From Lentisphaerota bacterium (GTDB lineage Bacteria > Verrucomicrobiota > Lentisphaeria > Victivallales > Victivallaceae), in NCBI GenBank assembly GCA_015061745.1, contig SUWB01000002.1, positions 1-64,000 of the forward strand: a stretch of 64,000 nucleotides of DNA, in the 5' to 3' direction. Shown piece after piece: positions 28,058 to 53,345 of this stretch. The first letter of the stretch is position 1, and the number at the start of each line of letters is the position of its first letter. The notes beneath the pieces were generated by a model. The model worked only from the letters and a program-made list of their open reading frames with translations. It ran no database searches and had not been told where the DNA came from. The translations under genes were made by a program, and so were the position numbers.

Positions 28058-29350
28058 TCAGGGAACTTCCGGGATCCAGGTATACCCCGGTCCGGTGTGA
28101 ATATTGGGTTCATTGAACCAACCGGCGGCGACCTTTGCCGTCAAACTGACAAAAGCAAGCTGGTCAGTCCACCTTTTGAGTCCGCTTTTGTCCAAATAAA
28201 TCATACCGGCGTGCCCGTCGGTAAAGAGGACATTATACCCCAGATTGGCCGGTGAATGATTGGGGCGGAAATTGAATCCGCCTGAACCTTTGGCGATGTT
28301 CTGCATTGTGTCAGCTCCGTCTTCTGAAGCCATAATACACTTGGAAATCGAACGGACAGCCGAAGTTTTTTTGCCGGGAAGCCCCAAAAATGGAGCCGTC
28401 TTGTTGTAAGGTGTTGCAGGAGCACTGCCGGTGCCGGTATTGTTTCCGCAACTGTTCATCGGATAAGAATTTCCGTAAAAGCTGTGGGTACTGCCGTTGA
28501 CGGATCTCCAATATCCGTTTCCTTTGATGTCAACAGGACACATAAAAAGTTTGAAACCGTTGGCAGCCAGGACTTTTTTAGTTTCAGCCAGACTGGGGGT
28601 CTGCAGCCGTTCAAGACCAAAATAGGGATTAAGCTGCCCCAAAGCAGGTGAACCGGTATAATATCCAACAACCTTGTAACCGAAATCCGCTGCCGTTGTC
28701 TGCCCCGGATAAGGAGTCGGATAAAAACCGTTATAATCTGACACATAAGACATATAGGCCGAAGATTGCTGTTTGAGATTATTGACGCAAGTAACGGACC
28801 TGGCCCGTTCTCTGGCCTGATTCAATGCCGGCAGCAGCATAGCAGCCAGAATAGCGATAATAGCAATCACAACCAGAAGTTCGATCAAGGTGAAAGGAGC
28901 CGGGGAAGGAAGGGAACCCTTTTTGAAAAAAGGTTCTCCCGTCCTTCCCCGGACCCCATCCATCCTTGCCAAAAACTTTTGGTGGATTGCCGTTTTTGCA
29001 TCCGCAAAACCGACAATCCCGCATTTTGAAGAATTGCAACGGCAAGTATCAAGGCAAGAGGCAATTTTTCGCAAGATATAAACACATATTTGACAAGTTT
29101 TGCTTACCAATAGTTCAATCAGCGTGAACGCTGATTGAGTGAAGATGTGAAGGTGTGAAGAGCTTTTTTTGCTTCCGCAAAAAAAGCGTGAAGTGCACCC
29201 TTGCGGGCGTAAGGATGTGTCGTTTTTATAAATTATTTTGAGGTAATAAAACGGCAAAACCCTAACTTTACAAGCAGCACTCACGAGCAACTCAATAAGA
29301 GTAAAAAAAGGATATTCCCCCTTGTAACAACAGTTATGTTTTTTCAACAT
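28058..29350 (-). CDS. Pseudopilin with three prepilin motifs at the N-terminus, gene 1
   Basis: The start is set at the ATG at 29350 ([13 protein letters not shown]), which has AAGGAAAA right before it. The longer frame to 29395 runs into the upstream terminator. The frame contains FTLIELLV three times (29282-29305, 29105-29128, 28871-28894). Only the last is followed by the hydrophobic helix [16 protein letters not shown] and the heptad tail [18 protein letters not shown] of type II pseudopilins. Toward the C-terminus [15 protein letters not shown] is a variant (H-X12-DG) of the processing-associated H-X9-DG motif, and the end is [10 protein letters not shown] normal product would need a leader of about 15-20 residues before the last motif. 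As written, 152 residues precede it. The gene lies between two giant secreted-enzyme genes. Confidence 0.75.
28871..29305 (-). repeat. Hairpin-rich prepilin-motif modules inside pseudopilin gene 1
   Basis: Two modules of 177 and 234 nt separate the three FTLIELLV copies. Module 1 (29129-29305) continues after the motif as [15 protein letters not shown] and carries a hairpin array on the plus strand: a 10-bp stem at 29115-29138 that contains the FTLIE codons of copy 2, three GTGAAG words at 8-nt spacing (29139-29160), an 11-bp stem at 29162-29187, another GTGAAG, and a weaker G/C-rich stem. Module 2 (28895-29128) continues as [13 protein letters not shown] and ends in a long stem (28900-28910 with 28942-28952, plus an inner stem) just before copy 3. 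Both modules keep the frame open. Confidence 0.8.
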
Positions 29351-29380
29351 TTTTCCTTGCCCCCACGTAATACAATCAAA

Positions 29381-29417
29381 CAACTGCCGGAACATAAAAA
29401 CATTCCGGCAGTTGTTC
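29381..29417 (-). terminator. Terminator after giant secreted protein copy B
   Basis: A 12-bp perfect stem (29381-29392 with 29403-29414) with a 10-nt loop, 15 bp after the stop at 29432. The T tail is short. It separates copy B from pseudopilin gene 1. Confidence 0.7.
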
Positions 29418-34999: not shown

Positions 35000-36148
35000 T
35001 TATTTGAGTTCAGGGATCCACACATAGCCGGGGCCTCTGTGGATATTGGGAGCAAGCAGAAAACCGTCTTTAATCTTATTTTCAATGGGAACTGCATACA
35101 ACTGCCAACCGTACTTTTCCAAAGCATATTTGTCCAGATAGATCATTTTTGCCGAACCGTCTGTAAAGACAACATTGTAACCGAGATTGGAGGGTGAATG
35201 GGCAGGTTTGTAATAGTACCCAACACCGTTTTTAGCGACCCACTGCATCGTATCAGCTCCGTCCTCATAAGCCATAATGCACTTGGAAGGCATAGCCACT
35301 TTACTGGTCTTTTTGCCCGGCAGACCGAGGCTGGGGGGCGTTTTGTTGTCTGCATAACCGATATTGGTATTGTTTCCGGTGGCGTTCATAGGATAATTCA
35401 TACCGTAATAAACTTTCATCAATCCAAGGTCTCTCCGCCAGGTTCCATTTCCGGGGGCATCAGCCGGACAGAAAAACACATTAAATCCGCCCCTGGCAAG
35501 GATCGCTTTGGTTTCGTTATTGTTGGAATTCTGAAATCTTTCAAGTCCGAAATAGGGATTGATCTGGCCGTACTTGACTCCGTCAACTGTTTTGTAGCCC
35601 CCCACATAGTAACTGAAGTTGGAAAGGGTTGTCGCTCCGGCATAAGGGGTGGGATAAAAGTCCTTATTATCATTTGTGTAGTTGTGATAGGCCCCGCCCT
35701 GCTGTTTAAGATTGCTGATACAGGTCATTGCCCGTGCCCTTTCCCGTGCCTTGCCCAAAGCCGGCAGCAGCATAGCGGCAAGAATACCGATGATCGCAAT
35801 GACGACCAGAAGTTCAATCAGCGTGAACGCTGATTGAGTGAAGCACGGCTTCGCTGTATGAAGCATTTGCCTCTGGCAAATATGAAGCACACCGTTGGTG
35901 TATGAAGCACTTGCTTTGCAAGCATTATAAGGCATTTTTTTATAAAATTTATTGAAATAATGCAGCGGGGAGACACATACTTGACAAGTTTTGTTTACAA
36001 GAAGCTCTATTAAGGTGAAGCTGTACAGCTTCACCTGCCTGTAGGCAGGTGAAAAACCTTCTACTTTGCCATAAACACGATCACAGCAGTGATGGGATCT
36101 TTTCACCAGCTGTTCGATCAACGTAAAAAGAACGACTCTTTTTTTCAT
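35000..36148 (-). CDS. Pseudopilin with three prepilin motifs at the N-terminus, gene 2
   Basis: The start at 36148 ([15 protein letters not shown]) has AGAAGGAG about 8 bases before it, so the ribosome site sits before the first motif copy. Motif copies lie at 36104-36127 (FTLIEQLV), 35996-36019 and 35804-35827. Only the last leads into [16 protein letters not shown] and the pseudopilin helix [18 protein letters not shown]. The C-terminal part [16 protein letters not shown] and ending GYVWIPELK match gene 1. If copy 1 joined directly to copy 3 the product would be an ordinary pseudopilin with a seven-residue leader. As it stands, the first motif is followed by the charged [13 protein letters not shown]. 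Its role may be in type II secretion of the neighbouring exported enzymes, which is inferred from the family. Confidence 0.75.
35804..36127 (-). repeat. Hairpin-rich prepilin-motif modules inside pseudopilin gene 2
   Basis: Two modules of 108 and 192 nt lie between three motif copies. On the plus strand, 35814-35922 is an array of five stem-loops. The first (35814-35837) contains the FTLIE codons of copy 3. The other four (35845-35857, 35865-35881, 35889-35901, 35910-35922) differ in sequence but keep complementary arms. The 7-mer GTGAAGC or ATGAAGC stands between all neighbours. Around copy 2 a 24-nt perfect palindrome (36013-36036) overlaps a 10-bp stem (36030-36053), so the two folds compete. 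Another hairpin lies at 36079-36093. After copy 2 the words AAAACTTGTCAA and TATGTGT recur as in gene 1 (29105 downwards). Confidence 0.82.
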
Positions 36149-36167
36149 AAGAAAACTCCTTCTCATA

Positions 36168-36239
36168 TTATTTTGCTTCCGGTATCCAACCTCCTGCAGC
36201 ACGTCCGCCGCAATAGGTTGCTGTTAATAAATTTTTCAT
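36168..36239 (-). CDS. 23-residue ORF resembling a pseudopilin C-terminus (remnant or small peptide)
   Basis: ATG at 36239 reads [18 protein letters not shown] and ends IPEAK at the stop 36168-36170. The ending GGWIPEAK resembles the last residues of the two full pseudopilins (GYVWIPELK and GYTWIPEVP), so this may be the 3' remnant of a third pseudopilin gene that acquired a start codon. A GGGAG word stands about 10 bases before the ATG. Its stop is 20 bp before the start of pseudopilin gene 2, so it could also act as a coupling leader. The rest of 36149-36303 holds nothing else recognisable. Confidence 0.35.
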
Positions 36240-52612: not shown

Positions 52613-52735
52613 ATGAACAAGCAAACCTTTGAAATATTGCCCTTACAGGGCGTGTATTGGAAAGATGAGAGCACGATTTTACAGACTCTTACGGACTTGC
52701 ACGGACAGATACGGACAAATACGGACGTCCGTTAG
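52613..52735 (+). CDS. 40-residue ORF ending inside a decamer array
   Basis: ATG at 52613, preceded by GAAAGGAAATAC, reads MNKQTFEILPLQGVYWKDES and ends in ILQTLTDLHGQIRTNTDVR, the last half coded by the ACGGAC array. The first half looks like the start of a real gene cut short by the repeat. Function unknown. Confidence 0.35.
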   Translation: MNKQTFEILPLQGVYWKDESTILQTLTDLHGQIRTNTDVR

Positions 52736-53262
52736 TGTCCGTTTGTGTCTGTAATAGTCCGTAAAATTTTTCAAAAGGAATCATTGATGCCAATAAAACG
52801 ACTGATCATAAAACTGCTCACCGCATTTTCGGCGTTGCGGGCGGGAAAAGTGTTTGCCGCAGATAATATCAGCGTTATTGCCTTCCTGTCAGGTTATGAT
52901 CGACTATTACCGGAAACTTGGACACGATTTTACAGAATCTTACGGACTTGCACGGACAGATACGGACAAATACGGACGTCCGTTAGTGTCCGTTTGTGTC
53001 TGTAATAGTCCGTAAAATTTTTCAAAAGGAATCATTGATGCCAATAAAACGACTGATCATAAAACTGCTCACCGCATTTTCGGCGTTGCGGGCGGGAAAG
53101 TGTTTGCCGCAGATAATATCAGCGTTATTGCTTCCTGTCAGGTTATGATCGACTATTACCGGGAACTTGGACACGATTTTACAGAATCTTACGGACTTGC
53201 ACGGACAGATACGGACAAATACGGACGTCCGTTAGTGTCCGTTTGTGTCTGTAATAGTCCGT
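52675..53262 (+). repeat. 250-bp tandem repeat carrying three head-to-head ACGGAC/GTCCGT arrays
   Basis: Three arrays start (first ACGGAC) at 52691, 52942 and 53191, so the period is 251 and 249 bp. Each array has four ACGGAC decamers (plus a preceding CAGAC word in copy 1) joined directly to four GTCCGT/GTCTGT decamers, an imperfect palindrome of about 72-82 nt. Between the arrays lies a nearly identical stretch with AAAAGGAATCATTG before an ATG (52787, 53038) that reads MPIKRLIIKLLTAFSALRAGK. Single-base indels break this frame differently in each copy, so it is probably non-coding now or a decayed gene. Nothing else was recognised in 52736-53345. Confidence 0.88.
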
Positions 53263-53345
53263 TAAAATATCTCTTATACGCAACTATTTCAAAGCAAGCT
53301 GGCGGTTCTTGCGAACGCTGCCGGCACACAAATTTTTGAGTGCGC

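Follow-up and report, generated by a model that had tools for sequence, protein, structure and literature searches.

The window analysed here is a stretch of 64,000 nt from a Lentisphaerota bacterium (contig SUWB01000002.1 of GCA_015061745.1, a draft assembly of 75 contigs). It harbours two genes for four-helix proteins, W1 and W2, each with its own short repeat arrays, followed by three arrays that carry no gene and lie within a tandem repeat. The features are as follows.

49656–49695, + strand: W1 leader array, ACGGAC words directly before the ATG (word search)
49706–50299, + strand: W1, protein of 197 aa matching the four-helix (TIGR02436) and helix-4 suffix (TIGR04258) profiles (profile match)
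50126–50151, + strand: W1 coding array, three GTCCGT words, the reverse complement of the leader word (word search)
50824–50856, + strand: W2 leader array (repeat search)
50866–51462, + strand: W2, protein of 198 aa matching the four-helix (TIGR02436) and suffix (TIGR04258) profiles (profile match)
51276–51311, + strand: W2 coding array, four GTCCGT words, encoding the loop before helix 4 (word search, predicted structure)
52621–52691, + strand: truncated ORF MNKQTFEILPLQGVYWKDES..., joined to an MPIKRL gene tail just 5′ of array 1 (sequence; comparison with the congener G008)
52672–53268, + strand: 251-bp tandem repeat, 2.4 copies, each an array plus a decayed downstream gene (TRF, pairwise alignment of copies)
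52691–52762, + strand: gene-less head-to-head decamer array 1 (word search; RNA fold)
52787–52939, + strand: decayed MPIKRL gene copy 1, with an internal deletion of ~300 bp relative to the intact G008 orthologue (sequence comparison)
52942–53013, + strand: gene-less head-to-head decamer array 2, identical to array 1 (copy alignment)
53038–53188, + strand: decayed MPIKRL gene copy 2, with two further 1-bp deletions (sequence comparison)
53191–53262, + strand: gene-less head-to-head decamer array 3, identical; the repeat stops just 3′ of it (copy alignment)

The three head-to-head (ACGGACnnnn)n–(GTCCGTnnnn)n arrays named in the preliminary description are all present, inside 2.4 copies of the 251-bp repeat. 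Each consists of four ACGGAC words at an exact spacing of 10 bp, followed with no gap by GTCCGT, GTCCGT, GTCTGT and GTCCGT, again spaced by 10 bp. The head-to-head pattern occurs nine times in the window, and ACGGACNNNNACGGAC 18 times, against no match for either in 100 dinucleotide shuffles. Two substitutions and two 1-bp deletions separate copy 1 of the repeat (251 bp) from copy 2 (249 bp); the deletions break, as had been claimed, the frame that begins MPIKRLIIKLL, and copy 3 is broken off just 3′ of its array. As RNA, array copy 1 folds at −43.3 kcal/mol (z = −5.8). At the Rfam gathering score, no relevant match was returned for the window, which gave one chance-level miRNA match, or for the related loci.

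W1 and W2 are 77 % identical, with a dN of 0.13 and a saturated dS, and in both the leader array stops about 10 nt 5′ of the ATG. In an AlphaFold2 model of W2 (mean pLDDT 81, four sequences), the residues encoded by the array fall in the loop that precedes the long last helix, or ‘suffix’, and the best fold matches of the model in the PDB, at modest scores, are the S23-family structures 2gsc and 2rld. Since the right array falls in this loop, the gene is interrupted before helix 4 in the TIGR04258 subfamily. The picture of a gene body held wholly between two arrays is thereby corrected, as the right array of W1 and W2 is inside the ORF. We know of no catalytic activity for the four-helix family, and the profile matches of the protein (TIGR02436 and TIGR04258) include no transposase domain. 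A third four-helix/suffix gene of the same genome (G000:C33:8039-8179, locus L113) uses the unit TCCGTACnnn, unlike W1 and W2. Small genes lie 3′ of the four-helix genes at 50296–50622, 51501–51995 and 51983–52597 of the window, and also at locus L083; they vary between genomes in a cassette-like manner and give no Pfam match above threshold. Elsewhere in the window, two ORFs on the − strand (28058–29395 and 35000–36202) each encode three tandem prepilin-type FTLIELLV leader motifs ahead of a single prepilin-like body.

The history of the gene-less arrays is illuminated by G008, in which just one orthologous array separates a 330-aa ORF from an intact gene of the 160-aa class (MPIKRLILKLL..., 159 residues); a W1-like four-helix gene lies upstream. 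This array ends about 27 nt 5′ of the MPIKRL start codon and contains two left units, compared with four in the window. A short match to the MPIKRL tail precedes the array in G008, as it does in the window. The 251-bp unit corresponds to a G008-type array plus an MPIKRL gene lacking about 300 bp, arranged head to tail. On the strength of the single orthologous array, the gene-less array is older than the split between the window genome (G000) and G008, or else was exchanged between them. Because G008 has one intercistronic array before an intact gene, and the window unit combines this array with a shortened form of that gene, the tandem unit itself is a later local rearrangement and not the element. 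MPIKRL orthologues without an array exist in three further genomes (G016, G021 and G095), in unrelated neighbourhoods with unrelated upstream DNA. The preliminary description had taken the arrays to be full genes from which the body between leader and coding array was removed, and this finds no support: no remnant of the helix-4 suffix lies 3′ of the arrays, and their spacers also differ from those of W1 and W2. Nor did the proposed search for empty sites yield a clean one for the window copy, the neighbours of the best hydrolase orthologues not being syntenic.

Arrays with and without a gene, which the preliminary description had suggested seeking elsewhere, were both found. With the exact word, gene-less head-to-head arrays are present in five of 100 genomes, the window genome included; with the looser word ACGGA this rises to ten of 100, i.e. 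nine of the 99 relatives, and at two of the sites, in G085 and G098, the array is within a four-helix gene or next to one. Arrays in the reverse, tail-to-tail order were seen in one genome of the 100. A scan of 84,980 species genomes for head-to-head ACGGA arrays gave at least 120 stretches, with up to 118 matches in one genome, and the matches listed span Proteobacteria, Acidobacteria, Chloroflexi, Spirochaetes, Planctomycetes, Verrucomicrobia and others. Among the matches listed, a TIGR04258 gene is found at two of 120 loci, where the array separates the two domains within the ORF, and outside the window's order the gene-less hairpins are mostly away from four-helix genes and from those of the GxxExxY family (PF13366/TIGR04256, PDDEXK_3). 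Beyond lineage-specific repeats, no common protein was found near the gene-less hairpins, apart from a hint of GxxExxY. Gene-less copies also occur between divergent and between convergent genes, and a dedicated terminator was rejected as a general reading because of the copies between divergent genes.

Across genomes, the link between gene-less arrays and TIGR04258 is weak (8/10 versus 39/90; p 0.03, without phylogenetic correction), and two draft genomes (G005 and G010) have gene-less arrays with neither a TIGR04258 nor a PF13366 gene detected. A blastn comparison of the hairpin with plasmid records gave no match, under a low-complexity filter that makes this result uninformative. Complete head-to-head arrays lie inside a four-helix/suffix ORF at two loci (L159 in G085, and L183), and wholly 5′ of the ATG of such a gene at another (L377, G098:C196); the position of the array relative to the gene is thus variable. 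A Chloroflexota contig (L186) contains a tandem series of at least four head-to-head ACGGA arrays, at intervals of about 108 bp.

Gene-carrying counterparts are a general phenomenon. TIGR04258 is present in 47 of 100 relatives, and at its loci the leader array is the reverse complement of the coding array in 24/80 cases, compared with 1/74 controls. The units of these arrays vary from locus to locus, but match within any one locus. The same organisation, with units of 7–10 bp, was assessed around GxxExxY and canonical TIGR02436 genes drawn from hairpin-bearing genomes and their relatives. Matched inverted arrays surround 29 of 42 GxxExxY genes (0 of 168 shifted positions in the same loci), with periods mostly of 8–10, and 18 of 25 canonical four-helix genes (0 of 100 shifted positions), with a period mostly of 7. 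The idea that the canonical four-helix genes use the ACGGA word proved wrong, as they have heptamers of other sequence instead. Six GxxExxY genes in hairpin-bearing genomes have ACGGA arrays on both sides, versus none at 20 loci in relatives; a looser count, accepting either side, gives a Fisher p of 0.06. This family is nearly absent from the genus of the window (1/34), and a relative of the query occurs in only eight of 72,556 plasmid records. In a Kiloniellales MAG (G105), the unit variants come in the same order in the gene-less hairpins and in a copy with a GxxExxY gene, which is what a MITE-like derivative would show. The earlier proposal that the arrays are non-autonomous derivatives, as MITEs are of transposons, is therefore sustained in part: gene-less and gene-carrying arrays both exist elsewhere and share unit order in G105, but the origin by body deletion falls away, and the window copy has no clean empty site.

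In a second four-helix lineage, with the unit TCCGTAC, the gene and its leader array follow directly after gloA in six genomes, and these copies look vertically inherited. G021 has a four-helix gene that is 77 % identical but lies after pyrD, not gloA. In G021 the entire gene lies between arrays: leader array, gene and downstream array take up all the space before the next gene, and from the leader array onwards the nucleotide sequence is homologous to the gloA copy. No element follows pyrD in the other 14 relatives with a readable pyrD end, although the DNA beyond differs, such that the comparison is one of presence and absence and not a clean empty site. Within the DNA compared, pyrD and folC are adjacent in no relative. 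For the gene-less copies in this order, no clean empty/filled pair or target-site duplication of constant length was found, and no tRNA or Rfam target was seen near the elements, apart from one unrelated tRNA. As a separate feature of the gloA-linked loci, the four-helix gene at L108, L109, L110, L113 and L117 is followed by a decayed duplicate of the gloA 3′ end (~75 bp). These copies resemble the gloA end of their own genome, with DGYWLEIIPAGKY on both sides in the window genome, and at L110 such units are repeated 5′ of the array.

The nearest known relative of the arrays is the 23S rRNA intervening sequence (IVS), of which short forms lacking an ORF also exist. In Coxiella burnetii, the IVS has a terminal inverted repeat with an S23p/IVP four-helix ORF in its loop; the 5′ arm of this repeat contains tandem heptamers (GACAGAT) in variable number, and the IVS has been called a selfish element (PMC4990558). 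The arrays share the terminal inverted repeat able to form a stem, and the ORFs of W1 and W2 are of the same S23/IVP four-helix family, a likeness confined to the gene-carrying members and not extending to the three gene-less arrays. They are not themselves 23S IVSs, as they are located between protein genes and not in the 23S rRNA gene. Furthermore, they are built of decamers, W1 and W2 have their right arm inside the ORF, the gene-less copies are dispersed, and the GxxExxY type of ORF shares the architecture.

In copy number and dispersal, the arrays behave like MITEs and REPs. REP/REPIN sequences with their RAYT are likewise short palindromes scattered between genes in many copies, and are presumed to move by means of a protein supplied in trans (PMC3116915, PMC3733652), but measure 20–40 bp, whereas the arms here are arrays of 3–6 direct units, 70–100 bp overall, with no evident GTAG/CGTC tag, and the candidate partner, the four-helix protein, is not a Y1 transposase. 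MITEs are similarly non-autonomous inverted-repeat elements related to gene-carrying relatives, with inverted repeats common to a coding relative in the same genome; ACGGAC plays this part in W1, W2 and the arrays, and the case is clearer in G105. They differ in that the partner of the arrays is without a transposase domain, and in that no constant target-site duplication was found here. A looser resemblance is to heptamer repeats, amongst which cyanobacterial STRRs are short tandem heptamers comparable to the TAACTGA kind. Those of Beggiatoaceae (TAACTGA) are short, direct and intergenic, often just before start codons, and patchy across distant phyla (PMC4679880). The arrays agree in all of these respects, whereas TAACTGA and STRR repeats are mostly direct only and are not known to be linked to a gene family.

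Several other readings of the arrays can be weighed against this background. They might be RNA-level regulatory hairpins, i.e. long transcribed stems of 10-bp periodicity that govern how the cistron after them is translated, terminated or cut by RNase III; in the mRNAs of W1 and W2, the leader array would base-pair with the coding array and make the start codon inaccessible. The strong fold and the closeness to start codons, both of the leader arrays and of the G008 array, speak for such a role, as do the excision of the Coxiella 23S IVS by RNase III via a stem of this kind (PMC4990558) and the proposal of a heptamer direct-repeat family as a post-transcriptional regulator site (PMC4679880). 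We nevertheless hold it to be unlikely, given that gene-less copies also lie between divergent and convergent genes, and that tail-to-tail arrays, which would fold equally, are almost absent. RNA stems further predict that arm mismatches leaving G:U should outnumber those breaking a pair, and in a comparison of limited power the transitions fell at 21 versus 24, 33 versus 39 and 14 versus 20. With no G:U excess, RNA pairing gains no support, and the balance leans towards a DNA-level function or homogenisation. Slippage-born repeats without mobility, their units expanding and inverting by replication slippage or template switching and kept by gene conversion, would account for the two left units in G008 against four in the window, for the tandem amplification in the window and for the variable heptamer number between Coxiella strains (PMC4990558). 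They would account poorly for the same pentamer, period and head-to-head order in unrelated phyla, and for matched arms that track two particular gene families, making this explanation distinctly improbable.

The variable genes after the four-helix gene bring to mind cassette-junction sites, that is, intercistronic palindromes resembling integron attC which exchange small genes at this position. The MPIKRL orthologues, accompanied by an array in G008 and the window and lacking one in G016, G021 and G095, would suit this, as would the short MPIKRL-tail match before the G008 array and its window counterpart. The arms, however, are periodic and without an evident conserved core site, and the upstream neighbour gloA is fixed in six genomes, hence we give this explanation little credence. 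Least credible of all is an assembly artefact in the tandem repeat. The assembly is a draft, the repeat exceeds common short-read length, and some differences between the copies fall in homopolymers; yet substitutions are also found outside homopolymers, and a mere assembler duplicate is argued against by copies that differ in sequence. The orthologous array of G008, moreover, comes from an independent genome, and an artefact could alter only the copy number, not the array itself.

The explanation that we favour, to which we would give roughly an even chance, is that the three arrays belong, as members without an ORF, to a broad family of small inverted-array elements, that the arms act mainly at the DNA level and that the ORF-less copies are spread or maintained in trans. 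An element of this family would comprise two arms, each of 2–6 direct copies of a 7–10-bp unit, with the right arm the reverse complement of the left. Gene-carrying members would enclose one small ORF, encoding a four-helix protein of the 23S-IVS type or a GxxExxY (PDDEXK_3) protein, and ORF-less members would consist of arm joined to arm. Within the window genome, the cognate coding members would be the neighbouring genes W1 and W2, where the word is likewise ACGGAC. The arms may serve mainly as iterated recognition sites in DNA, or as a fold-back structure, through which elements could be copied or inserted, mostly between genes, with the ORF-less copies spread or maintained in trans, possibly by the four-helix protein. 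One such copy would have been placed between two cistrons before the split from G008; in the lineage of the window, the downstream gene would then have lost about 300 bp, and array and gene remnant would have been tandemly amplified.

These results suggest that a large, apparently undescribed class of small, possibly mobile elements exists, and in the open-access literature no paper was found that connects inverted arrays of short units with GxxExxY or four-helix genes. More tentatively, and at somewhat less than an even chance, the class may be a very large and hitherto unrecognised superfamily of small mobile elements with terminal inverted arrays of 7–10-bp units, an S23-type or GxxExxY PDDEXK ORF and dispersed ORF-less derivatives, of which 23S IVSs would be one special case. 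Environmental genomes commonly encode four-helix ‘intervening sequence’ and GxxExxY proteins, and to our knowledge neither has a known function. If both families sit in matched-array elements, the arrays provide a handle on what these proteins bind and do. The origin of 23S rRNA intervening sequences would, if this is true, be tied to a testable, genome-wide family, and the gene-less copies, numbering over 100 in some genomes, would form a new class of dispersed palindrome to annotate.
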